Assembly: GCA_019115045.1 (NCBI GenBank)
Contig: DXEI01000046.1
Coordinates: forward strand, 1 to 32,602
Length of the DNA stretch: 32,602 nt
Source of the DNA: Candidatus Gemmiger excrementipullorum
GTDB lineage: Bacteria; Bacillota; Clostridia; Oscillospirales; Ruminococcaceae
Reading direction: 5' to 3'
Numbering within the stretch: position 1 is the stretch's first letter; the number at the start of each line of letters is the position of its first letter. The notes beneath the pieces were generated by a model that was not told the origin of the DNA, did not search any database, and saw only the letters and a program-made list of their open reading frames with translations. This document shows, piece by piece, positions 210 to 11,149 of the stretch. The position numbers were made by a program, and so were the translations under genes.

Positions 210-1070
210 ATGGCGTATATCACAAAAGGCATCGGCGGGTTTTACTACGTCCGCACGGCGCAGGGCATCGTCGAGTGTAAGGCGCGCGGCGTTTTCCGCA
301 AGCGCGGCATCGCGCCGGTGGCGGGGGACAACGTCGTGCTCTCTGTCGACGGCAGCTTGATCGAGGAGATCCTGCCTCGCAAAAATGTGTTTGTGCGCCC
401 GCCGGTGGCCAATTTGGATGTGCTGTTCATCGTGGCCAGCACAACGCAGCCGGTGCCCAGCACGCTGGTGCTGGACGCGCTGACGTCGGCCGCCCTGTAC
501 AAGGGCGTACAGCCGGTGCTGGTGGTGACCAAGGCGGACCTGAAAGCGGCCGACACCCTGGCCGAGGCCTATGCGGGCAGCGGCATCCCGCTCATCTTAC
601 TGCACTACGAAAGCGGCGAAGGGCTGGATGCCGTGCGCGGGTATATCCAGGGGCATCTGTGCGCTTTTTGCGGCAACTCCGGCGTCGGGAAATCCACGCT
701 GCTCAACGCGCTCGCGCCGGAACTGCAGCGCGAGACCGGGCAGATCAGCCAAAAACTCGGCCGCGGCCGCCATACCACCCGCGAGGTCGAGATCTTTGAA
801 GTTTGCGGCGGCCGCCTGGCCGACACGCCGGGCTTTGCCAGCCTCGAAGCCCAAAAACTGGCCCGTATCCCCAAAGAGGAATTGCAGCATACCTTCCCGG
901 AATTTGAACCCTATTTTGGGCAGTGCCGGTTTACCGGCTGCTCCCACCGTGCCGAGACTGGCTGCGCCGTGCGCGCGGCTGTGGAAGCGGGCAAGATCAG
1001 CCCGTCGCGCTATGCCAGCTACCTCGCTTTGTATGAGGAAGCGAACGCCCGGAAAGCGTGGGAACCATGA
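210..1070 (+). CDS. rsgA: Ribosome small-subunit-dependent GTPase RsgA
   Basis: Circularly permuted GTPase that acts late in 30S subunit maturation. The 286-residue protein has the family order: N-terminal OB-fold (about 1-65), then G4 TKAD (107-110), the G1 P-loop GNSGVGKST (155-163), G3 DTPG (205-208), and a C-terminal zinc knuckle with Cys239, Cys244, His246 and Cys252. The length is close to the roughly 298 residues of Bacillus RsgA. ATG 210 is chosen because the next residues (MAYITKGIGGFYYV) match the usual RsgA N-terminus; the frame stays open upstream to 96, but that part overlaps the previous gene. The stop overlaps the thiN start (ATGA), implying coupled translation. The usual rpe gene between rsgA and thiN is absent. 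Confidence 0.97.
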   Translation: MAYITKGIGGFYYVRTAQGIVECKARGVFRKRGIAPVAGDNVVLSVDGSLIEEILPRKNVFVRPPVANLDVLFIVASTTQPVPSTLVLDALTSAALYKGVQPVLVVTKADLKAADTLAEAYAGSGIPLILLHYESGEGLDAVRGYIQGHLCAFCGNSGVGKSTLLNALAPELQRETGQISQKLGRGRHTTREVEIFEVCGGRLADTPGFASLEAQKLARIPKEELQHTFPEFEPYFGQCRFTGCSHRAETGCAVRAAVEAGKISPSRYASYLALYEEANARKAWEP

Positions 1071-1702
1071 CGGGGCGCGCGGTGGTGTTTTCGGCTGTGG
1101 AGGTCGGGCCGGAGATGGCCGGTTACCTGCAGCCGGGGGATTTTATCGTGGCCTGCGACGCTGGGTACCGCAACGCTGCCCGCCTGGGGGTAAAACCGGA
1201 CCTGATCGTGGGGGATTTTGATTCCGCCCCGCAGCCGCAGACCGACCGCGAGACCATCGTGCTGCCGCATGTCAAGGACGATACCGACACGCAGTTTGCC
1301 GCCCGCTGGCTGGTGGAACACGGCTGTACCGAGGCCGTGCTGCTGGGCGCGTTGGGCGGCGCGCGCATAGAGCATACGTTTGCCAACATTTCTACGGGGC
1401 TGTATCTTTCGCTGCACGGCGTCAAGACCATTTTGGCCGACGCGCGCAGCGAGATGCATTACCTGCTGCCCGGCCAGCCGCTGCGCCTTGCGCGGCGGGA
1501 CTGGATGTATTTGTCTGTGTTTGCCTTGGGGGCGCCGCTTTGCGGCGTGACGCTGCAGGGGGTGTATTACCCGCTGCAGGACGCCACCCTGACGGAGCTT
1601 GACTACCCGCTGGGCACCAGCAATGAGTTCACAGCCCCCGAGGCCTGCCTGCAATGCACGGCGGGCCATGGCCTGGTGGTGCTGACGCGCGCCGACGGTT
1701 GA
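1067..1702 (+). CDS. thiN: Thiamine pyrophosphokinase
   Basis: Transfers pyrophosphate from ATP to thiamine, giving the cofactor thiamine diphosphate. The 211-residue protein shows the family signatures in order: a nucleotide-binding GDFDS motif, KDDTDTQ (the KDxTDT metal/substrate motif), GGARIEHTFANI (variant of GGRxDHxLAN), LLPG, and a C-terminal GTSNEF motif. The start is ATG 1067, overlapping the rsgA stop as ATGA; a GTG at 1058 lies in frame but is less likely. rsgA-thiN is a conserved Firmicute pair and is followed here, as in Bacillus, by spoVM. Confidence 0.94.
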   Translation: MTGRAVVFSAVEVGPEMAGYLQPGDFIVACDAGYRNAARLGVKPDLIVGDFDSAPQPQTDRETIVLPHVKDDTDTQFAARWLVEHGCTEAVLLGALGGARIEHTFANISTGLYLSLHGVKTILADARSEMHYLLPGQPLRLARRDWMYLSVFALGAPLCGVTLQGVYYPLQDATLTELDYPLGTSNEFTAPEACLQCTAGHGLVVLTRADG

Positions 1703-1729
1703 CACACAGACCCCGCCTGCGCATAGTAT
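1699..1729 (+). promoter_or_regulatory. Possible promoter of spoVM (sigma type unresolved)
   Basis: TTGACA lies at 1699-1704 over the thiN stop. Seventeen to nineteen bases later comes GCATAGTAT (1721-1729). It can be read as a weak sigma-A -10, or as the CATA-type -10 (CATAGTAT against CATACAAT) of the sporulation sigma factor E that drives spoVM in Bacillus. The choice cannot be made from sequence alone. Confidence 0.35.
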
Positions 1730-1765
1730 GGCGTACACGAACGACGGAAAGTGAGGTGTACGCCG

Positions 1766-1834
1766 ATGCATGTGGTCGTGGTCCGCTGCCCGCGCGCGCT
1801 GCGCTGGCTGCTTCGCGCAGCTTTCAAAGTATAA
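1766..1834 (+). CDS. spoVM: Stage V sporulation protein M (22-residue SpoVM)
   Basis: A 22-codon gene: MHVVVVRCPRALRWLLRAAF then KV. SpoVM is a tiny amphipathic helix that senses the convex curvature of the forespore membrane and recruits SpoIVA there. Against Bacillus SpoVM (26 residues) there are no gaps, and Pro9, Leu12, Arg17 and Ala18 fall at identical positions, with basic residues at 7 and 10; Pro9 is known to be important for correct localisation. A GAGGTG ribosome site sits 7 bp before ATG 1766. The position directly after thiN is the same as in Bacillus, and the partners sipL and spoIVA follow. It lacks the C-terminal GSFRKD-like tail. It ends 12 bp before a strong terminator, so it can be a single-gene transcript. 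Confidence 0.86.
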   Translation: MHVVVVRCPRALRWLLRAAFKV

Positions 1835-1845
1835 ACCTTCCTGCA

Positions 1846-1877
1846 AACCTCTGCCGCAAGGCAGGGGTTATTTTTTT
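1846..1877 (+). terminator. Rho-independent terminator after spoVM
   Basis: A 10-bp stem (1846-1855 with 1860-1869, one G-T pair) closes a GCAA tetraloop and is followed by seven T (1871-1877). It separates spoVM from sipL. Confidence 0.92.
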
Positions 1878-1940
1878 GCCGCTGCGCATATACATGCACC
1901 AGAAAGCCAACCAAGCGCTAGATGGAAAGGGGCAATCACA

Positions 1941-3491
1941 ATGGAACTCAAGGTGTTTAAGGACACCCTTGCGGCCTACGGCGGCCGGTGGGAAGGCCGG
2001 CAGGAGCTCCCGGTCGAGACCGAGATCCTGATCCCGGATTATCTGCCGGCCGTGTTCAAGATCGTCAAGTGCAGGGTGGAGCCCATCCTGCTGCAAAACC
2101 GCGTGGCCGGCGCCCGCTGGCAGTGCGAGGGCTTCCTGCGCTGTACCGTATACTACCAAAGCGACGAGCCGGGGTGCCGGCTGTACCGCGTCGAACAAAA
2201 ATTTGCCTTTGAAAAATCGGTCGAGCTCCCGGCCGGCAGCTACGCCGAAGGGCCCGCGCAGACCTGGGGCGAGCTGGAATACTGCAACTGCCGGGCAGTC
2301 AGCGAGCACCGCATCGACCTGCGCGGCGCGTACATTTTGTGCGGCGCGGTCCTGGCCAGGCGGGAGTGCGAGCTGCTGACCTCGCTGGCCGACTGCGGCA
2401 TCGAGCAGCGCGCCCGCACCTTGCGCGGGATGCAGCGCGTTGCAGCCGAAGAAAAAACGCTGACAGCTTCCGCCGTGCTGCCGATGCCGGAGGCCGGCGC
2501 CACGGTGCTGGAGATCGGCGGGCATTTTGCGCTGGGGGAGGCATCGCTGCAAACCGGGCAGGCCAGCGTGCAGGGCGTTTTGCAGGTGCAGGTGTGCTGC
2601 CAGCCGGCGGGCGAGGAACAGCTGACGGTGCGCACAAAAGAGATCCCCGTGCAGCAGACTGTGGACTTGCCCGGCGTGACGGCGGAGGATACCTGCGTTG
2701 CCTGGGGCGAGATCCAGGCCTGCACGCTGGCCGCGCCGGACGCCGGCGAAGAAGGCGCGCTGAGCCTCGGCTGGAAGCTGCATGTGGAAGTCTGGCGCGA
2801 GACGGCGTGCACGGTGGTCGCGGATGCGTACTCCACCCTGTACCAGACCCAGACGGTGCAGACGGCCTGCAAGCTGCTGAACAAAACGGCGGACCTGGCC
2901 GAGCGCGTGAGCGTGGTGCTGCAGGACGAACTGCCGGACCCCGAACTGACCGTAACGGGCTGCTTTGTCACGCTGGGCAAGGCGGTCCCGATGGCGGTGC
3001 AGGACGCCGGGGCGGCCGCGCAGTTCTGCTTGTGCGGCAAGGGCACAGCGCATGTGCTTTGTGCCGACGCCCGCGGCGAGGTGACCTGCTTTGACAAGAA
3101 CTTTACCTGGCGGCCGGAAGGCGTGTGGCAGGGCGCGGCGCCGGACGCCTGCGCCTGTGTGAGCGCCGCCGTCACCCGTGTCAGCAGCAGCAAAAACGGC
3201 GCGCAGCTGCAAGTCGAGCTGGAGATCGGCGTCAGCGGCCTGCTGCTGCAGGCGCACACCGGCGAGGCCTTATGTGAGGTGGAGCTGGGCGAGGCGTATG
3301 AGCGCCCGGCCGACGCCCCGGCACTGTACCTGTACTATGCGGCGGCCGGGGAGCGCGTTTTTGACATCGCCAAGCGCTACCATGCGCGCGCCAAAGACCT
3401 GGCGGCGGCCAACCGCCTGCCCTGTGACGGCGGCGCCGCGCAGGACTGCATCGCGCAGGCGGCCTGCCTGTTGATCCCGGCGGCCCAGTAA
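1941..3491 (+). CDS. sipL: SipL-like SPOCS/DUF3794 protein with C-terminal LysM
   Basis: A 516-residue protein resembling SipL, the clostridial partner that binds SpoIVA and is needed for coat encasement of the forespore. Residues of about 20-110 form a first SPOCS (DUF3794) domain (ELPVETEILIPDYLPAVFKI and following). Further SPOCS-like repeats lie at about 155-270 and 320-440. The last 60 residues form a LysM-like domain (YYAAAGERVFDIAKRYHARA, then AANRLP), the region by which C. difficile SipL contacts SpoIVA. ATG 1941 follows an AAGGGG site by 7-8 bp; the frame extends upstream to 1770, but that would run through spoVM and its terminator. spoIVA begins about 14 bp downstream, consistent with an operon and with the proposed partnership. 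Confidence 0.88.
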   Translation: MELKVFKDTLAAYGGRWEGRQELPVETEILIPDYLPAVFKIVKCRVEPILLQNRVAGARWQCEGFLRCTVYYQSDEPGCRLYRVEQKFAFEKSVELPAGSYAEGPAQTWGELEYCNCRAVSEHRIDLRGAYILCGAVLARRECELLTSLADCGIEQRARTLRGMQRVAAEEKTLTASAVLPMPEAGATVLEIGGHFALGEASLQTGQASVQGVLQVQVCCQPAGEEQLTVRTKEIPVQQTVDLPGVTAEDTCVAWGEIQACTLAAPDAGEEGALSLGWKLHVEVWRETACTVVADAYSTLYQTQTVQTACKLLNKTADLAERVSVVLQDELPDPELTVTGCFVTLGKAVPMAVQDAGAAAQFCLCGKGTAHVLCADARGEVTCFDKNFTWRPEGVWQGAAPDACACVSAAVTRVSSSKNGAQLQVELEIGVSGLLLQAHTGEALCEVELGEAYERPADAPALYLYYAAAGERVFDIAKRYHARAKDLAAANRLPCDGGAAQDCIAQAACLLIPAAQ

Positions 3492-3505
3492 AGGAGGGGA
3501 TGATC

Positions 3506-4981
3506 GTGACCCAGCAACAGATCTATCAGACCATCGCCCGGCGCACGGGGGGCGATATCTATCTCGGCGTCGTGGGGCCGGTGCGCAGCGGCAAAAGTAC
3601 CTTTATCAAGCGGTTTTCGGAGTTGATGCTGCTGCCGCATATCCAAAACGAGGCGCTGCGCGCCCGTGCAGCCGACGAATTGCCGCAGTCGGCGGCCGGG
3701 CGCACCATCATGACGACGGAGCCCAAGTTTATCCCGGAAAAGGCCGTCACGGTGGAACTGTCCGGCGGCGGCAGCTTCCGCGCGCGGCTCATCGACTGCG
3801 TCGGGTATATGGTGGAGGGCGCGCTCGGCCATGAGGAGAACGACGCCCCGCGCATGGTCAAAAGCCCCTGGTTCGACCATGCGGTGCCGTTTGACCTGGC
3901 GGCCGAGACCGGCACCCAGCGCGTGATCCGTGAACACGCCACCGTGGGCGTGCTGGTGACGACAGACGGCTCGGTCGCAGACCTCCCGCGGGAAAACTAC
4001 TGCGAAGCGGAACGCCGCGTGGCCGAAGAACTCGACGCCATCGGCAAGCCGTATATCATCCTGCTCAACTGTGCCGAGCCAACTTCAGACGCGGCGCGGC
4101 AGCTGGCGGCCGAATTGCAGCAGCAATACCGCCACGTGGTGTTTCCGATCAACTGCACGGCCATGACGGCCGAGACCGCCGACGCGCTGCTGCAGGCGCT
4201 GCTGTACGCCTTCCCGGTGCAGGAAATCGCCGTCCACATGCCCGGCTGGGTGACGATGCTGGCACCCGGGCATTGGCTGCAAAGCGCAGTGTACGCCGCA
4301 CTTTCGGGCTATGCGGACGGTATCCGCATCATGGCGGACGTCGCCGGCAAAGACCCGCAGCTGGACTGCGAGCATGTGTCGTCGGCGTCGCTGGACGGCA
4401 TGGATCTGGGCACCGGCACCGTGCACATCACGGTCAACATCGCCCCGGACATTTTTTACCGTATCCTGGGCGAACAGACAGGGCTGGAGATCGTCGACGA
4501 AGCCAGCCTGCTACCCTGTGTGGTCAGCCTGGCCCGCGCCAAGCGCGCCTACGACAAGATCAAGTCGGCGCTGGAACAGGTCGAGGCGACGGGGTACGGC
4601 ATCGTGATGCCGGGTATCGACGAACTGACGCTGGAGGAACCCGAGATCGTGCGCCAGGGCGGGCAGTACGGGGTGCGGCTTTCCGCCAGTGCGCCCAGCC
4701 TGCACATCCTGCGCGCCAACATCCATACCGAACTTTCCCCGACGGTGGGCAGCGAACAGCAGGGGGAAGAACTCATCAAAAGCCTGCTGGCGGATTTCGA
4801 GACCGACCCCGCCAAACTGTGGGGCACCAACATTTTTGGCAAGAGCCTGAACGAGCTCGTCAGCGAGGGGGTGCAGGCCAAACTGCTGCACATGCCGCAG
4901 GAGGCCCGCAACCGCCTGCAGCAGACGCTGGAACGCATCATCAACGAGGGCTGCGACGGGCTGATCTGTATCTTGCTGTGA
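3506..4981 (+). CDS. spoIVA: Stage IV sporulation protein A (coat morphogenetic ATPase)
   Basis: SpoIVA is an ATPase that polymerises on the forespore surface to form the basement layer of the spore coat. Visible features: Walker A GPVRSGKST (24-32), the conserved DELPQSAAGRTIMTTEPKF block, LIDCVGY (Walker B region), TTDGS, and the highly conserved end LERIINEGCDG. GTG 3506 is chosen over ATG 3500: the AAGGAGG site (3491-3497) lies 8 bp from the GTG but only 2 bp from the ATG, and the GTG start puts the Walker lysine at residue 30, as in Bacillus. The result is 491 residues against 492 in Bacillus. Key residues look intact, so it should be active. It is co-directional with sipL and with the DUF2508 gene and bofA. 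Confidence 0.96.
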   Translation: MTQQQIYQTIARRTGGDIYLGVVGPVRSGKSTFIKRFSELMLLPHIQNEALRARAADELPQSAAGRTIMTTEPKFIPEKAVTVELSGGGSFRARLIDCVGYMVEGALGHEENDAPRMVKSPWFDHAVPFDLAAETGTQRVIREHATVGVLVTTDGSVADLPRENYCEAERRVAEELDAIGKPYIILLNCAEPTSDAARQLAAELQQQYRHVVFPINCTAMTAETADALLQALLYAFPVQEIAVHMPGWVTMLAPGHWLQSAVYAALSGYADGIRIMADVAGKDPQLDCEHVSSASLDGMDLGTGTVHITVNIAPDIFYRILGEQTGLEIVDEASLLPCVVSLARAKRAYDKIKSALEQVEATGYGIVMPGIDELTLEEPEIVRQGGQYGVRLSASAPSLHILRANIHTELSPTVGSEQQGEELIKSLLADFETDPAKLWGTNIFGKSLNELVSEGVQAKLLHMPQEARNRLQQTLERIINEGCDGLICILL

Positions 4982-4997
4982 GATGGGGGAACTGCCA

Positions 4998-5210
4998 GTG
5001 CTGAAACGAATGAGCCGCACCGAAAAAGAGCAGCGCGCCATGCAAAGCGAGCTGCAGGCCGCCCTGCAAGCAATGCGCGCCAACGAGGCCGCCTTTGAAG
5101 AAGTGCAGGACCCGGTTTGCATAGAGCAGCTTACCTACCAGCACGCCGCGCTGATGTGCCGCTGCCGCGCGCTGCTGCGCGCATTGCGGGCGGCAGGGGC
5201 GGACCCGTGA
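4998..5210 (+). CDS. yaaL: DUF2508 (YaaL-like) small protein
   Basis: A basic, helical protein of about 70 residues (LKRMSRTEKEQRAMQSELQA and on, with QDPVCIEQLTYQ later). The pattern of two helices around a D-P turn matches DUF2508, the family of Bacillus YaaL, whose function is unknown. The start is uncertain: GTG 4998 has a GGGGGA site 7 bp upstream, whereas ATG 4983, in frame, has none. In Bacillus yaaL is the gene immediately before bofA, and the same pair is seen here, with the stop overlapping the bofA start (GTGA). The context suggests a role linked to sporulation or to the BofA unit; that is inference. Confidence 0.8.
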   Translation: MLKRMSRTEKEQRAMQSELQAALQAMRANEAAFEEVQDPVCIEQLTYQHAALMCRCRALLRALRAAGADP

Positions 5211-5461
5211 CGGGGCCCTGGGTGTGGGCTGCGGCGGGCGGCTGCGCGGCGATGATCTTCTGGTGTGCATTGCACCAGCGCCGGCCGCTGCGCACGCTGC
5301 TGGCAGGGGCGCTTTGCGGGCTGGGCGCACTGGCGCTGGTGGCGCTGTTGGCGCCGGCCACCGGGGTGGAGCTGCCGCTCAACCGTTTTACAGCCTTTGT
5401 GGCGGCTGTGCTGGGCCTGCCCGGCGTGGTGACGCTTTTGCTGCTGCAGCTGCTTTTGTAA
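5207..5461 (+). CDS. bofA: Pro-sigma-K processing inhibitor BofA family protein
   Basis: An 84-residue membrane protein (Bacillus BofA is 87). BofA sits in the outer forespore membrane and holds the protease SpoIVFB inactive until the sigma-K checkpoint is passed. Two to three hydrophobic segments are visible (about 3-18, 25-48 and 60-84). The C-terminal half carries the diagnostic block NRFTAFVAAVLGLPGVVTLL, which matches the family's N-x-F-T-A...LG-L-P-G-V motif. Translation starts at GTG 5207, overlapping the previous stop (GTGA). spoIVFB and sigK are not in this window. Confidence 0.88.
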   Translation: MTGPWVWAAAGGCAAMIFWCALHQRRPLRTLLAGALCGLGALALVALLAPATGVELPLNRFTAFVAAVLGLPGVVTLLLLQLLL

Positions 5462-5464
5462 AAC

Positions 5465-5493
5465 TTGCCAAGCTGCTTTTTTTGTGCTATACT
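5465..5493 (+). promoter_or_regulatory. Sigma-A promoter of rnpB
   Basis: TTGCCA (5465-5470), 17-bp spacer, TATACT (5488-5493). The predicted start near 5500 coincides with the 5' strand of the RNA's P1 helix. Confidence 0.9.
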
Positions 5494-5499
5494 GAGCCG

Positions 5500-5848
5500 A
5501 AAACGAGTGGAACATACGGCGGCGGGACAGTTCGCAAGAACTGCCTGAGGAAAGTCCGGGCTTCACAGAGGCATGGCAACTGCTAACGGCAGCCGGGGGT
5601 GACCCCAGGGATAGTGCAACAGAAAGAAACCGCCGCGCCCTGGCGCGGTAAGGATGGAAAGGCGAGGTAAGAGCTCACCAGCGCACTGGCGACTTTGCGG
5701 CTATGTAAACCCTGCTTGAAGCAACATCCGTATGGGACATGATGCGGAGCCTCGCGCGTCCCGGTGATGGCGTGAGCCTTGCGGCGACGCAAGGCCAAGA
5801 TAGATCGTCGTTTGATACAGAACCCGGCTTACGGTCCAGTCGTTTTTT
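5500..5848 (+). ncRNA. rnpB: RNase P RNA (bacterial class A)
   Basis: The catalytic RNA that removes 5' leaders from pre-tRNAs. The universally conserved segments occur in order: GAGGAAAGTCCGGGC (near 5548), CAACAGAAAG in the 5610s, GGTAAGGATGGAAAGGCGAG (5648 onward), GGTAAGAGCTCACCAGCG (5666 onward), AAGATAGATCGTCG and ACAGAACCCGGCTTA near the 3' end. P1 is formed by AAAACGAGTGGA (5500-5511) with TCCAGTCGTTTT (5835-5846), one mismatch, which sets the ends to within a few bases. The CR-V/P4 partners and a GGTAAGAGCTCACC stem place it in class A. Confidence 0.97.
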
Positions 5849-5858
5849 GGTTTCCCAG

Positions 5859-5892
5859 GCACATCCGCGCTCTGCTGCGGGTGTGCTTTTTT
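5859..5892 (+). terminator. Terminator after rnpB
   Basis: A 10-bp stem (5859-5868 with 5877-5886, one G-T pair), an 8-base loop and six T at 5887-5892. Confidence 0.9.
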
Positions 5893-5946
5893 ATTTGCTG
5901 CGCGTCAGGGGGGGCAAGCGCCCTTTGCAGCTGGCAGAGTTTGGGT

Positions 5947-5975
5947 TTGCATCCCGACGGGCTTTGTGCTATAAT
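5947..5975 (+). promoter_or_regulatory. Sigma-A promoter of the RluA-family gene
   Basis: TTGCAT (5947-5952), 17-bp spacer, perfect TATAAT (5970-5975). Confidence 0.82.
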
Positions 5976-6011
5976 AATACAGCTTAGGTGCAGGGGAAAG
6001 AGGTGCGCGCG

Positions 6012-6911
6012 ATGCAGCTGGAATTTGTCGTGCCGCCTGCTTTTGACGGCGCGCGCCTGGGGACGTTCCTGCGCACGCAGGGGGTCACCGCGGGCCTGAT
6101 CCGCTCGGTCAAGCATGCCGGCCGCGGCTTTTTTGCGGACGGCGTTCCGCTGCACACCGACCGGCCGGTTTGCACCGGGCAGCGCATCACGTTTGTGCTG
6201 CCGCCGGACCCGCCTACCAGCGTCGTGCCGCAGCCTGTGCCGCTAAAGATCGTCTATGAGGACGATTTTGCCGCGGTGCTGGACAAGCCGGCCGGGCTGG
6301 CTGTGCACCCAACGCTCAACCATCCGGACAAAACGCTGGCCAACGGCTGGGTCTTCCACCTGCAGCGGCAGGGCACGCCCGGCGTGTTCCGCCCGGTGAA
6401 CCGGCTGGATAAAAACACCAGCGGTCTGGTGCTGTGCGCACAAAATGCTTATGCGGCGCCGCTGCTGGCAGCCGGCGCCCAAAAATGTTACCTTGCCATC
6501 GCGCAGGGCGAAATGCCGCTGGGGCCGGGCCGGGTGGAAGCGCCCATCGGCCGCCGCGGCGATTCCATCATTGGGCGGTGCGTCACCCCGCAGGGCAAGT
6601 ACAGCCTGACCGAATATACGGTGCTGGCTGCCGGGGGTGGGTACAGCCTGCTGGCCTGCACGCCGCGCACCGGGCGCACGCATCAGATCCGGGTGCATAC
6701 AGCGTACATCGGCCACCCTTTGGCCGGGGACACCCTGTACGGCGGCGATTTACAGCAGATCGCCCGCCATGCGCTGCACTGTGCGGTGCTGCGCTTCCCA
6801 CACCCCATGACCGGGGCCGTGCAGCGGCTGGAAAGCCCGCTGCCGGCAGATATGCAGGCACTGGCGGTAAAAGCCGGCTTGCTGCAAGGCTGGTCCTGGC
6901 GGCAGTTGTAA
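6012..6911 (+). CDS. RluA-family RNA pseudouridine synthase
   Basis: Converts uridine to pseudouridine in rRNA or tRNA. The 299-residue protein has an N-terminal S4-like part (about 1-65), the EDDFAAVLDKPAGLAVHP entry strand, the catalytic block PVNRLDKNTSGLVL with Asp133, and RTGRTHQIRVH near the C-terminus, all typical of RluA/RluD/YlyB enzymes. The first residue of the usual HRLDxxTSG motif is Asn130 rather than His; the catalytic Asp is kept. ATG 6012 has AAAGAGGTG 6-7 bp upstream. Substrate position (RluD-, RluC- or YlyB-like) cannot be assigned by eye. It is transcribed alone from its own promoter or together with the endopeptidase gene downstream. Confidence 0.92.
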   Translation: MQLEFVVPPAFDGARLGTFLRTQGVTAGLIRSVKHAGRGFFADGVPLHTDRPVCTGQRITFVLPPDPPTSVVPQPVPLKIVYEDDFAAVLDKPAGLAVHPTLNHPDKTLANGWVFHLQRQGTPGVFRPVNRLDKNTSGLVLCAQNAYAAPLLAAGAQKCYLAIAQGEMPLGPGRVEAPIGRRGDSIIGRCVTPQGKYSLTEYTVLAAGGGYSLLACTPRTGRTHQIRVHTAYIGHPLAGDTLYGGDLQQIARHALHCAVLRFPHPMTGAVQRLESPLPADMQALAVKAGLLQGWSWRQL

Positions 6912-6992
6912 AACCAAACCGGCCGCGGTGCGGCACGGTTGCGATCTCGATTTGTCTTTGCCACGTTTCTGCGCGGAAAGGAGACCCCTGTT

Positions 6993-8816
6993 TTGAATTC
7001 TACCCAGACGGAGCAAAAAACAAAGAAACAAAGCGCGCCCCAAACGCCGAAACGCCGCGAAAACAGCCGCCGTAAAGAGCAGCGCACGCGGCATGGCAAC
7101 ACGTTGACGGCGCTGTACCATAAGATCCCGTACCACTATGTGCTGGGCGATTTTTTGTACATGGTCGGCTTTTGGGTCGAGTATACCCTGGTGCGCACCT
7201 GGCGCCGCCTGCGCGAGGCCTTGCAAAGCATCGGCGCGGCGCTGGGCAACCTGGTGCTGCTGGCGGTGCGTCCCCTGGTATTGGGCGTCTTGACCCTTCT
7301 TGAGGATATTGCCAGCCCGTTTGTGCACATGGTCTCCGGCCTGCGCCATATCCGCCAGCTGCCGCAGCAGCTCGATGTAGAGGATGCGAGCCAGATCCGC
7401 AAGGCCAAAGCGGCATATTTCCGCCGCGGCGTCAAAAAATATCTCCCCATCGTGTGGAACGCGATGACCTACTTTCTGCCGGCGCTGGCTGCAGCGGTCT
7501 TGATCGTTGTCGTGCGCAACGGCCTGGGGCTGCAGTTCGTGCTGAACGTGCAGGTCAATGGCGAGACGGTGGGCTATGTGGCCAACGAGCAGGTGTTTGA
7601 AAATGCGCGCGATGATGTGCAGTCGCGCATCTACACGGCGCGCGCCATGCTGCAGGAAAGCGGCACCGACGTCCCCGACACCCAGTGGAACGTTTCACCC
7701 ACCTTTACGCTGGCGATCTCCGGCCAGACCATGACGGAAAGCGAGATCGCCAACGCGATCCTGCGCACGGCCAGCGACGAGATCGTGGACGCAACGGCTG
7801 TGTATATCGACGGGGAATTGCGCTTCGTCACCACCGAGGGCGACCACCTGCGCACCTACCTGGAAAGCGTCAAGGAACCGTTCGAGGACGCGCTGGACCC
7901 CTCGGTCTATACGGCGTTTGCACATGAGATCCGCCTGGTGGACGGCGTTTATCTCAGCGAGTCGGTCAGCTCGTACAGCGACATCATCAGCGAGCTGAAC
8001 GCCGGCGCCGGGGTACATACCTACACCGCGGTCGAAGGGGATACCGTCCAGAGCATTGTGGACACCACCGGCGTAACGTTCGACTCTCTGGCGCAGATGA
8101 ACCCCGAGCTGTTGACGCTGGACCAGGAAGTGCCGGCCGGCACCGAACTGTTTACCGGCGCGGCGTCGGCGGAACTTTTGAAGGTGGAAGTCGTGCGGCG
8201 CGAGACCGAGACCGTGGCGATTCCGTTCGAGACGCAGAACTCCGAGTCGGACGAGTATGACTTTGGCGAGGTCGTTGTGCTGCAGGAAGGCCAGGACGGC
8301 GTCGAGGATGTGACCTATGAGATCACGATGATCGACGGCACCGTGACCGACCGCCAGGCGGTCGCCTACAATGTGATCCAGCAGCCGGTACCGGAGATCA
8401 CGGTCACCGGCACCCGCCTCAAGAGCGGCATGGTGGCGCAGGTCGGTTCCGGCAGCTTTATCTGGCCGGTGCCGCAGTACAAATATGTCAGCCGCTGGAT
8501 GGGCAGCGGCCACCGCGGTGCGGACATCTGCGCGCCGTACGGCGTGCCGGTCCTGGCGTCGGACTCCGGCAAGGTCGTGGCGGCCGGTTGGCATTATTCC
8601 TACGGCAACTATGTCGAGATCGACCACGGCAACGGCTATACGACGCTGTACGGGCACATGTCGGCGCTTTCGGTCACCCAGGGCCAGGGCGTCACGCAGG
8701 GGCAGAAGATCGGCGAAATCGGTTCTACCGGCAACTCTACCGGCAACCACTGCCATTTCGAGATGACCTACAACGGCCGCCTGTTCAGCGCGCAGAGCCT
8801 GTTCCCCGGCATGTAA
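6993..8816 (+). CDS. Membrane-anchored M23 endopeptidase with LysM and G5 domains
   Basis: A 607-residue cell-wall hydrolase. Order: a basic cytoplasmic N-terminus (1-30), an amphipathic/hydrophobic stretch (about 55-105), a clear transmembrane segment (155-175), an extracellular region, a LysM domain (343-387, YTAVEGDTVQSIVDTTG), a G5 domain (396-472) and a C-terminal M23 peptidase (488-607). The zinc ligands are present: His507 and Asp511 in GHRGAD, and His588 in HCHFE, with His586 as catalytic partner. It should cleave peptide cross-links in peptidoglycan. The start is TTG 6993, with AAAGGAG 9 bp upstream; an earlier TTG at 6939 has no ribosome site. The long cytoplasmic/membrane N-terminal region is unusual for this architecture. 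Confidence 0.9.
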   Translation: MNSTQTEQKTKKQSAPQTPKRRENSRRKEQRTRHGNTLTALYHKIPYHYVLGDFLYMVGFWVEYTLVRTWRRLREALQSIGAALGNLVLLAVRPLVLGVLTLLEDIASPFVHMVSGLRHIRQLPQQLDVEDASQIRKAKAAYFRRGVKKYLPIVWNAMTYFLPALAAAVLIVVVRNGLGLQFVLNVQVNGETVGYVANEQVFENARDDVQSRIYTARAMLQESGTDVPDTQWNVSPTFTLAISGQTMTESEIANAILRTASDEIVDATAVYIDGELRFVTTEGDHLRTYLESVKEPFEDALDPSVYTAFAHEIRLVDGVYLSESVSSYSDIISELNAGAGVHTYTAVEGDTVQSIVDTTGVTFDSLAQMNPELLTLDQEVPAGTELFTGAASAELLKVEVVRRETETVAIPFETQNSESDEYDFGEVVVLQEGQDGVEDVTYEITMIDGTVTDRQAVAYNVIQQPVPEITVTGTRLKSGMVAQVGSGSFIWPVPQYKYVSRWMGSGHRGADICAPYGVPVLASDSGKVVAAGWHYSYGNYVEIDHGNGYTTLYGHMSALSVTQGQGVTQGQKIGEIGSTGNSTGNHCHFEMTYNGRLFSAQSLFPGM

Positions 8817-8897
8817 GCGCGTTTGATAAAATCACAGCGGCAAACGGTAAGGCTCTGGTATATTTTCACAAAGATTCCACAATCTGTGCCGAGATAC

Positions 8898-8926
8898 TTT
8901 TCAAACACGGATATATAGTGTATAAT
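8898..8926 (+). promoter_or_regulatory. Promoter of murA
   Basis: Perfect TATAAT (8921-8926) with TTTTCA (8898-8903) as -35 across a 17-bp spacer. The rest of the 177-bp gap (8817-8993) holds nothing else I recognise. Confidence 0.75.
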
Positions 8927-8993
8927 AAGGCAAAGTGCGTAAAAGCGTGCCAAAAGGCTTTGCGGCCCGGCACCGCACAAAGGAGAGCTGTCT

Positions 8994-10277
8994 TTGGAAA
9001 AATTTGTGATCCGCGGGGGCAACCCGCTGCAGGGCGATGTGAATATCGGCGGCGCGAAAAACGCAGCCGTGGCCATTCTGCCTGCCACGATTTTGGCCGC
9101 GGATAAATGCCTGATCGAAAACCTGCCCTGCATCAGTGATGTGATGGCCTCCCTCCAGATCCTCAGCGAGCTGGGGGCCAGCATCCGCATGGTCAGCCGC
9201 AGTACATACGAGATCGATACCACCCACATCGTCAGCACCGAGGTCTCCAACGAACTTTCCCGCCAGATGCGCGCAAGCTATTATTTCCTGGGCGCGCTGC
9301 TGGGGCGGTTCGGCGCCGGCCAGGTGGCGATGCCGGGCGGCTGCAACCTGGGCCCGCGCCCCATCGACCAGCACCTCAAGGCGTTTGCCGCGCTGGGGGC
9401 AGAGGATTCGGTCGAGTACGGCCAGATCCATGTCAAGGCGGGTGCGCTGAACGGTTCGCATGTGTTCTTTGATACCGTCTCGGTCGGCGCGACGATGAAC
9501 GCCATGCTGGCGGCGGTGCTGGCCAAAGGCACTACGGTGCTCGAAAATGTGGCCCGTGAGCCGCATATCGTCGATTTGGCCAACTTCCTGAATATGATGG
9601 GCGCGGATGTGCGCGGCGCCGGCACCGATGTGATCAAGATCCACGGCGTGCCCAAACTGCACGGCTGCGAGTATTCGGTCATCCCGGATCAGATCGAGGC
9701 CGGCAGCTATATGGTCGGCGCGGCCATCACCAAGGGCGATGTGACGCTGCACAACGTCATCCCCAAGCATATGGAGCCCATCACCGCCAAGCTGCGCGCC
9801 GCGGGCTGCGAGATCTGGGAGTATGACGACGCGCTGCGCATCCGCCGCACGGGCGAGCTGCGCGCGCTCAAGATCAAAACGATGCCGCATCCCGGCTTCC
9901 CCACCGATATGCAGCCGCTGATGACGACGCTGCTGTCGCTGGCAAAGGGGACGTCCATCATCACCGAGGGCATCTGGGAGAATCGCTTCCGCTACGTGGA
10001 CGAGCTCATCCACATGGGCGCCAACATCCGGGTCGACGGCCAGGTAGCAGTCATTGAAGGTGTAGAGGAACTGCACCCTGCACCGCTGCGCGCCACCGAC
10101 CTGCGTGCCGGGGCCGCGATGGTCATGGCCGCGCTGGCCGCCAACGGCGTGAGCGAGATCGATGAGACGATCCACATCGAGCGCGGGTACGAAAACATCG
10201 TCGAAAAGCTGCAGCAGCTGGGCGCGGATATCCGCCGTGTCGAGATCCCGGCGCACGCCGCCAGCCGCGCGATGTAA
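8994..10277 (+). CDS. murA: UDP-N-acetylglucosamine 1-carboxyvinyltransferase
   Basis: First committed step of peptidoglycan synthesis: transfers enolpyruvate from PEP to UDP-GlcNAc. The 427-residue protein begins with the family signature EKFVIRGGNPLQGDVNIGGA and carries the catalytic loop PGGCNLGPRP with Cys117. That is the residue fosfomycin alkylates, so the enzyme is expected to be of the sensitive type. It ends with the usual FDNKxE-like closing region (IERGYENIVEKLQQLGADIR). The start codon is TTG 8994, preceded by AAGGAGAG about 7 bp away. It is followed by a strong terminator, so it appears monocistronic. Confidence 0.97.
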   Translation: MEKFVIRGGNPLQGDVNIGGAKNAAVAILPATILAADKCLIENLPCISDVMASLQILSELGASIRMVSRSTYEIDTTHIVSTEVSNELSRQMRASYYFLGALLGRFGAGQVAMPGGCNLGPRPIDQHLKAFAALGAEDSVEYGQIHVKAGALNGSHVFFDTVSVGATMNAMLAAVLAKGTTVLENVAREPHIVDLANFLNMMGADVRGAGTDVIKIHGVPKLHGCEYSVIPDQIEAGSYMVGAAITKGDVTLHNVIPKHMEPITAKLRAAGCEIWEYDDALRIRRTGELRALKIKTMPHPGFPTDMQPLMTTLLSLAKGTSIITEGIWENRFRYVDELIHMGANIRVDGQVAVIEGVEELHPAPLRATDLRAGAAMVMAALAANGVSEIDETIHIERGYENIVEKLQQLGADIRRVEIPAHAASRAM

Positions 10278-10292
10278 ACACAAATAGGGCCA

Positions 10293-10321
10293 ATGGGCCG
10301 CCCGACGGCGGCCCATTTTTT
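10293..10321 (+). terminator. Terminator after murA
   Basis: A perfect 10-bp stem (10293-10302 with 10307-10316), loop CGAC, and a run of T to 10321. Confidence 0.93.
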
Positions 10322-10360
10322 GCGGATTTTTTACCAAAACAAAGGAAAAGACAAACAGTC

Positions 10361-11149
10361 ATGGCTTTTTTTACGACACTGTATTCCGGTTCCTCCGGCA
10401 ACTGCGGGCTGGTACTTTGCGGCCGCAGCTACCTGCTGATCGATATGGGCAAGAGCTGCCGTACGACCCTGACGGCGCTGCGCAAACTGGGGCTGGCGCT
10501 CAGCGACTGCGCCGGCATCCTGGTCACCCATGAACATTCGGACCATGTGGCGGGCCTGGATACCTTTTTGAAAAAATACCCGATGCCGGTCTACGCCTGC
10601 GCCGACACCCTCGATGTGCTGGAGTCCCGCGGCACGCTGCCGCCTGCGGTGGAGGGGATCGCCGCCGACGGCCAGACGCTGGATGTGGGGCCGTTCCGCG
10701 TGACGGCGTTCCCCACCAGCCACGACGTGCCCTGCTGCGGCTACCGCATCCTGACGCCGGACGGCCGCCGTATGGCCATTGCGACGGACTTGGGGGTGCT
10801 GACGCCGGTGGCGGCGGACCACATGGCCGGCTGTGATCTTGTCGCGCTGGAGGCCAACTACGATGCATTCAGCCTGCATGGCGGGCCCTACCCGTATTAC
10901 CTCAAAAAGCGCATTGCCAGCGACCGCGGCCACCTGGACAACAAAGCCTGCGCGGCTGCGATCCTGGACCTGATCCAGGAAGGGTGCAAAAAGTTTGCCC
11001 TGTGCCATCTGAGCCAGACCAACAACTCGCCGGAACTGGCGCTGACGACTGTGTACAACGTGCTGCTGGCGGCCGGTATCCAGCCCGGGCGCGATGTCAT
11101 CATCCAGGCGCAGGCGCGCAACGATGTCAGCCCTTACCTGGAATTTTGA
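10361..11149 (+). CDS. walJ: MBL-fold metallohydrolase, WalJ/YycJ type
   Basis: A 262-residue metallo-beta-lactamase-fold protein. It starts with the WalJ signature TLYSGSSGNCGLVL, has the metal site HEHSDH (57-62), and continues with SHDVPCCGYRI and a distal DRGHLDN motif. WalJ proteins are 5'-3' exonuclease-like enzymes linked in Bacillus to the WalKR cell-wall regulon. Here no walKR is adjacent; rlmH follows 12 bp downstream, and walJ and rlmH are also near neighbours at the end of the Bacillus walKR locus. This conserved proximity supports the assignment. Confidence 0.88.
   Translation: MAFFTTLYSGSSGNCGLVLCGRSYLLIDMGKSCRTTLTALRKLGLALSDCAGILVTHEHSDHVAGLDTFLKKYPMPVYACADTLDVLESRGTLPPAVEGIAADGQTLDVGPFRVTAFPTSHDVPCCGYRILTPDGRRMAIATDLGVLTPVAADHMAGCDLVALEANYDAFSLHGGPYPYYLKKRIASDRGHLDNKACAAAILDLIQEGCKKFALCHLSQTNNSPELALTTVYNVLLAAGIQPGRDVIIQAQARNDVSPYLEF

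Follow-up and report, generated by a model that had tools for sequence, protein, structure and literature searches.

SpoVM is the textbook example of a peptide that senses micrometre-scale membrane curvature, it marks the forespore's curved surface for assembly of the coat, and the protein of B. subtilis comprises 26 aa. According to published work, the amphipathic helix of the B. subtilis protein inserts in the convex membrane, and Pro9, which has been suggested to leave the N-terminus of SpoVM flexible, is needed for the choice of curvature; SpoVM then recruits SpoIVA, whose polymer in turn holds SpoVM (PMC12004969, PMC5607322). Pro9 is the sole fully conserved residue in a published alignment (PMC5607322, legend of Fig. 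1), and the same paper reports that the K2A substitution in B. subtilis SpoVM blocks cortex production. The SpoVM of C. difficile, as described there, binds SpoIVA, is controlled by sigma-E and makes a minor contribution to spore formation (PMC5607322). The C. difficile system resembles the one examined here in that a clostridial SpoVM stands alongside SpoIVA and SipL. Its minor role may hold in Gemmiger too, and a strong phenotype for Gemmiger spoVM should therefore not be assumed.

In 2012, Galperin and co-workers pointed out that SpoVM has fewer than 30 aa and is seldom recognised in annotation, and they asked whether a distant SpoVM exists in clostridia where none was found (PMC3533761). 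The Gemmiger peptide described below is a distant clostridial version of the kind asked about. Our text search, outside which most of the subscription literature lies, returned no paper on SpoVM in Faecalibacterium, Gemmiger or Ruminococcaceae.

The spoVM locus and its orthology

The window is the whole stretch of 32,602 nucleotides analysed here (contig DXEI01000046.1 of Candidatus Gemmiger excrementipullorum, assembly GCA_019115045.1). It carries a 22-codon ORF between thiN and sipL, at 1766-1834, whose translation is MHVVVVRCPRALRWLLRAAFKV. The features of the locus are as follows.

1067..1702, + strand: thiN, thiamin pyrophosphokinase, domains over cut-off; 5' of spoVM in 35/35 Gemmiger genomes
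1722..1732, + strand: CATAGTATGGC, -10-like element of the mother-cell sigma type, set against the C. difficile -10 boxes
1751..1758, + strand: Shine-Dalgarno sequence GTGAGGTG, ending 7 nt 5' of the spoVM ATG
1766..1834, + strand: spoVM, short SpoVM ortholog by sequence; 22 codons and stop, ATG to TAA, 69 bases
1846..1869, + strand: intrinsic terminator of spoVM, a 10-pair hairpin followed by the T-run ATTTTTTT
1887..1896, + strand: CATATACATG, second -10-like (CATA) element before sipL; visual inspection shows a similar sequence in several relatives
1941..3491, + strand: sipL, with SPOCS domain
3500..4981, + strand: spoIVA, the partner that SpoVM would be expected to recruit; three SpoIVA Pfam domains over cut-off

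A lone ORF of 22 codons is no better than chance, and the status of this one as a gene thus rests on conservation. The preliminary description had placed the ORF at these coordinates after thiN, with a good ribosome site and its own terminator, and each of these points was borne out: thiN ends at 1702 and keeps the same order in all 35 Gemmiger genomes, the GTGAGGTG site stands 7 nt from the ATG, and the hairpin occupies 1846-1869. The residues it had named are all present in the window peptide, namely basic residues at 7 and 10, Pro9, Leu12, Arg17 and Ala18, plus Arg13 and Trp14. Inspected by eye, the 35 Gemmiger genomes show a purine-rich site 5' of the spoVM start. Within 110 nt of the stop, 32 of the 35 have a fold at or below -8 kcal/mol, in a test that took a stretch of up to 50 nt before at least four T and did not require a single hairpin. 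The genome search found no second SpoVM in the window's genome. We also observed that the SipL frame is open to 1770 and overlaps spoVM; an automatic start call there would hide spoVM.

For the upstream region, CATANNATGGC was found 36-76 nt 5' of the spoVM start in 35/35 Gemmiger genomes, and CATANNAT followed by GGC also lies 5' of the gene in all 35. The mother-cell promoters of C. difficile have CATATTAT or CATATAAT as the -10, according to PMC3789822. On this comparison, control of Gemmiger spoVM by sigma-E/K is likely. It is only likely because the region at 1722-1732 also scores as sigma-70-like (TTGACA-17-CATAGT), so that a sigma-70 reading fits the same place, and because no -35 is established. 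A sigma-K model is uninformative here, since the window's genome and all 14 controls, B. subtilis included, stayed below its cut-off.

The NCBIfam model NF033436 (SpoVM_broad) was run against 41 family genomes, one per genus and the window's included. It was over cut-off in 34 of them, and the window locus gave no match in that search. Among the 35 Gemmiger genomes, none was over cut-off, which counts against our explanation; in eight, the model pointed to the right place with a score under the cut-off (E 1.2e-4 to 2.2e-4 in seven, 0.06 in the eighth). The control set yielded one genome over cut-off out of 14, with weak noise in five more. A second profile, A1, was made from 23 of the 35 Gemmiger peptide sequences. 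At E <=0.01, A1 matched 22 of the 40 non-Gemmiger family genomes and had no match in the other 18. As many as 21 of the 22 matches coincided with the best place of NF033436 (20 over its cut-off and one, in G059, just below it), and the match in G053 lay elsewhere. In a wider draw, A1 matched 130 of 297 family genomes, five of them Gemmiger.

Aligned with 29 distinct family SpoVMs, the peptide requires no gap up to residue 22. The thiN gene also lies 5' of the longer SpoVM in Fournierella, Faecalibacterium-like and Pygmaiobacter loci. Due to this agreement between profiles, the ungapped alignment and the thiN/sipL gene order, positions 1766-1834 are identified, on sequence grounds, as a SpoVM ortholog in a shared gene order, and the identity suggested in the preliminary description is upheld. 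The preliminary description had aligned the peptide to Bacillus SpoVM without gaps, and in Bacillus, too, spoVM comes after thiN. On the negative side, look-ups of the 22-mer gave no NCBIfam, Pfam or PDB (phmmer) sequence match, which counts against our explanation, and the profile searched against PDB gave weak matches alone, to ribosomal uS7m (E 0.41 and 0.45). The statement of the preliminary description that ordinary gene calling misses the ORF thus gains indirect support only, from the failure of NF033436 to reach its cut-off in the genus and from the lack of an NCBIfam or Pfam match.

Conservation and purifying selection in Gemmiger

The peptide was present in all 35 Gemmiger genomes, the window's included, with 64-100% identity and E values from 1.4e-10 to 1.1e-5. 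These genomes are drafts, 19 of which reach 90% completeness or more with no more than 5% contamination. The gene has 22 codons in 27 genomes and 23 codons in eight, with start and stop in register; the start codon is ATG in 34 and GTG in one. The 35 DNA sequences are all distinct; translated over the first 22 codons, they collapse to 21 proteins. All 35 peptides have Cys8, Pro9, Trp14, Phe20 and Lys21.

Summed over the 595 pairs from the 35 genomes, pS was 0.585 and pN was 0.166, resulting in a pN/pS of 0.284 with a codon bootstrap range of 0.150-0.422 (200 replicates). The mean pairwise differences at codon positions 1, 2 and 3 were 0.194, 0.113 and 0.526, respectively, and the third-position value was reached by no column permutation. 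These data show the spoVM ORF to be a coding sequence under purifying selection. The preliminary description had staked the gene on this comparison, and the 22 codons proved to be conserved in close relatives, with synonymous change exceeding nonsynonymous change. The neighbouring genes gave a pN/pS of 0.375 (thiN, same 35 genomes) and 0.432 (sipL, 31 of the 35). Of these point estimates, that of spoVM is the lowest, with those of thiN and sipL in or near its bootstrap range. Mean identity was 0.742 for spoVM, 0.679 for thiN and 0.631 for sipL, the last from 31 of the 35 genomes.

The gene order was equally assessed across the genus. The thiN gene lies 5' of spoVM in 35/35 stretches, and sipL lies 3' in 31 of them, the four exceptions being G005, G018, L017 and L020. 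In G005 (locus L208), sipL is found approximately 7 kb beyond spoVM, and in G018 spoVM and spoIVA are on different contigs. Thus, in at least two of the 35 Gemmiger genomes spoVM stands apart from sipL-spoIVA, which counts against our explanation. In L208, the interval between spoVM and sipL (about 3720-10970) holds about 7 kb of other genes, which by eye presumably include radical-SAM-like, MetK-like and DegV-like proteins. Approached from the partner gene, 18 of 20 Gemmiger-like spoIVA loci (L072-L090 and L117) show spoVM in the stretch, with L117 (from G005) and L084 as exceptions; the genome of L084 has one strong hit, which shares its coordinates with that of G018 and lies on a different contig from spoIVA. 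The spoIVA relatives at L072-L090 have 94-74% identity and belong to records of Gemmiger formicilis, G. gallinarum and others; the record labels are mostly Gemmiger, with two Subdoligranulum and one Faecalibacterium.

Length, tail and residue differences in the family

For the family comparison, 87 of 90 loci outside Gemmiger were used, and in these 87 a Pro at residue 9 was required. The three dropped loci (L054, L069 and L071) had no ORF under the position filter; the genome of L069 is represented by L171 and the genus of L071 by L205, and some genera are represented repeatedly. The survey of SpoVM length thus covers this family and a few named relatives. The 87 proteins have 23-31 aa, 85 of them 25-31 and two 23. 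Within this survey, the 22 aa of Gemmiger make the shortest SpoVM seen, and at 22-23 aa the genus falls below nearly all relatives examined, as the preliminary description had held. Its claim of a missing tail stood in part. The charged C-terminal tail is absent from Gemmiger SpoVM, which ends at residue 22 or 23, and this absence was borne out against the family; the family tail after residue 22 is KKED-like, and not GSFRKD-like as had been described.

Since the lengths in the family range from 23 to 31 aa, the charged tail is not counted as defining SpoVM. Two loci in two other genera, L050 (G065) and L179 (G198), encode the 23-residue SpoVMs MQIVTVKCPKWLAGIVRAVFGVK and MKVVVVRSPRFLRGILKAIFHLE, and that of Faecalibacterium hattorii (L214) has 24 residues. 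These three proteins are like Gemmiger SpoVM in ending one or two residues past position 22, and they are unlike it in keeping Gly14 and in belonging to other genera. Judged from these sequences, tail loss may recur across genera. As relatives have 23-24 residues, the Gemmiger form varies a known theme and sits at the end of the range.

Residue 14 is a sharper mark of Gemmiger than length. It is Trp in 35/35 Gemmiger peptides versus 0/87 in the family outside, where it is Gly in 67 and Pro in 14. Compared with SpoVM as represented by NF033436 and B. subtilis, the Gemmiger peptide is alike in the basic residue 7, Pro9, a putative amphipathic helix and the presence of spoIVA in the genome, whereas it differs in having 22-23 aa, no charged tail and Trp at position 14 rather than Gly or Pro. 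Additionally, residue 8 is Cys in Gemmiger and Ser in most relatives. Residue 2 is His, Gln or Arg in Gemmiger, which counts against our explanation, with Gln also in 17 of the 87 relatives. Assuming a helix, residues 11-22 have a hydrophobic moment of 0.70 in the window, with means of 0.69 in Gemmiger and 0.63 in the family. The mean hydrophobicity of the same putative helix is 0.21 in Gemmiger versus 0.50 in the family, a difference that counts against our explanation. The net charge is +4 or +5 in Gemmiger, and the family range is +2 to +7.

Sporulation setting and proposed role

A search for alpha/beta SASP (PF00269, E 0.001) returned no match in 35/35 Gemmiger genomes, and sporulation by Gemmiger is therefore not to be assumed, which counts against our explanation. 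In the family, SASP was present in 91 of 128 genomes, two of the 128 being Gemmiger. Spo0A was over cut-off in 33 of the 35 Gemmiger genomes. A sigma-E-like gene scoring above 305 bits was also found in 33, and none of the 35 reached the curated cut-off of 348.6. For chicken isolates, PMC6069880 reports Gemmiger, Faecalibacterium and Anaerofilum without spore protein genes and with other sporulation genes present. The selection on spoVM is evidence that the coat-base module still has some role.

Two candidate ideas on this setting were rejected. A tie between a short SpoVM and SASP loss is unsupported, as genus g76 has both the 23-aa form (L179) and SASP (G109); this evidence comes from two different genomes, and G065 (g32, 23 aa) has no SASP. 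A loss of spoVM in Faecalibacterium was also dropped: no SpoVM was found in the spoIVA neighbourhoods of several Faecalibacterium records, but the whole-genome search found it after thiN elsewhere. Four Faecalibacterium genomes (L214-L217) have a SpoVM of 24-28 aa after thiN. No sipL was found beside spoVM at L214-L217, nor within 4 kb 5' of spoIVA at L101, L104, L106 and L107.

Three other explanations were weighed against a selected, tailless SpoVM. One holds that the ORF is a decaying SpoVM, left over as the lineage loses sporulation, with the short tail and the changed residues as early decay. The lack of any alpha/beta SASP match in the 35 Gemmiger genomes would suit such a relic, as would the Gemmiger isolates reported in PMC6069880 without spore protein genes and with other sporulation genes present. 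However, the frame is intact in 35/35 genomes with start and stop in register, and spoVM shows a lower pN/pS and a higher identity (0.284 and 0.742) than thiN (0.375 and 0.679) or sipL (0.432 and 0.631). The selection test has already largely refuted decay, which we regard as very improbable. We give still less credence, next to none, to the proposal that the stretch is no separate gene and belongs instead either to SipL, extended far in the 5' direction in the +1 frame (ORF 1770-3491), or to an antisense ORF. The SipL frame is indeed open back to 1770 in the window, but that frame has a pN/pS of 1.333, and 10 of the 35 genomes interrupt it inside the gene span. Without protein constraint in the +1 frame, a SipL extension over spoVM is ruled out. 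The +2 frame gave a pN/pS of 2.389 and was likewise interrupted in 10/35. Antisense frame 1 looks better at first sight, with a pN/pS of 0.350 and interruptions within the gene span in two of the 35 genomes; however, its wobble base is also that of spoVM, and the length over which it stays open varies from 32 to 739 codons. The homology to SpoVM lies in the sense frame, which speaks against both the extension and the antisense ORF.

The remaining explanation concerns the setting and is compatible with the gene being SpoVM: SpoVM, SpoIVA and SipL would coat a resting cell free of SASP, or a different curved structure inside the cell, with no classical endospore formed. The coat-base genes are kept and spoVM is selected, and Spo0A and a sigma-E-like gene each occur in 33 of the 35 genomes, yet SASP was not found in them. 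Nevertheless, endospores without alpha/beta SASP are possible, the sporulation regulators are still present, and no sigma-E-like gene of the 35 genomes reaches the curated cut-off. We consider this setting unlikely, though a good deal less so than decay. A bolder version makes the tailless SpoVM a minimal curvature sensor of 22 residues, in which the invariant Trp14 does the membrane anchoring otherwise done by Gly and the charged tail, that coats a SASP-free resting cell or other curved structure; it is offered as a tentative idea and is, in our judgement, rather doubtful.

Very probably, then, the Gemmiger ORF is spoVM, under selection and tailless, and its product would be made in the mother cell, insert at curved membrane and recruit SpoIVA. 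In the mechanism that we propose, a promoter of the sigma-E/K type would drive synthesis of SpoVM in the mother cell. The N-terminus ahead of Pro9 and the amphipathic C-terminal helix would insert in the convex forespore membrane, with the invariant Trp14 and Phe20-Lys21 probably anchoring the shorter helix at the membrane interface. SpoVM would then recruit SpoIVA, SipL would bind on top, and coat assembly would start. By analogy with the systems described, we infer that Gemmiger SpoVM senses curvature and recruits SpoIVA; the elements behind these steps are retained, and the genes of the partners are neighbours. The lost tail would be dispensable for starting the coat; with everything up to residue 22 kept, its loss suggests that the role under selection does not depend on it.

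A natural SpoVM of 22 residues shows which part may suffice, namely the N-terminus, Pro9 and the helix to residue 22, and Trp14 offers a built-in probe. Under NF033436, spoVM goes without a name throughout an entire gut genus, and predictions of sporulation from gene content can be biased as a result. With a selected spoVM in genomes where SASPs were not found, the use that Gemmiger makes of its coat genes is directly testable.
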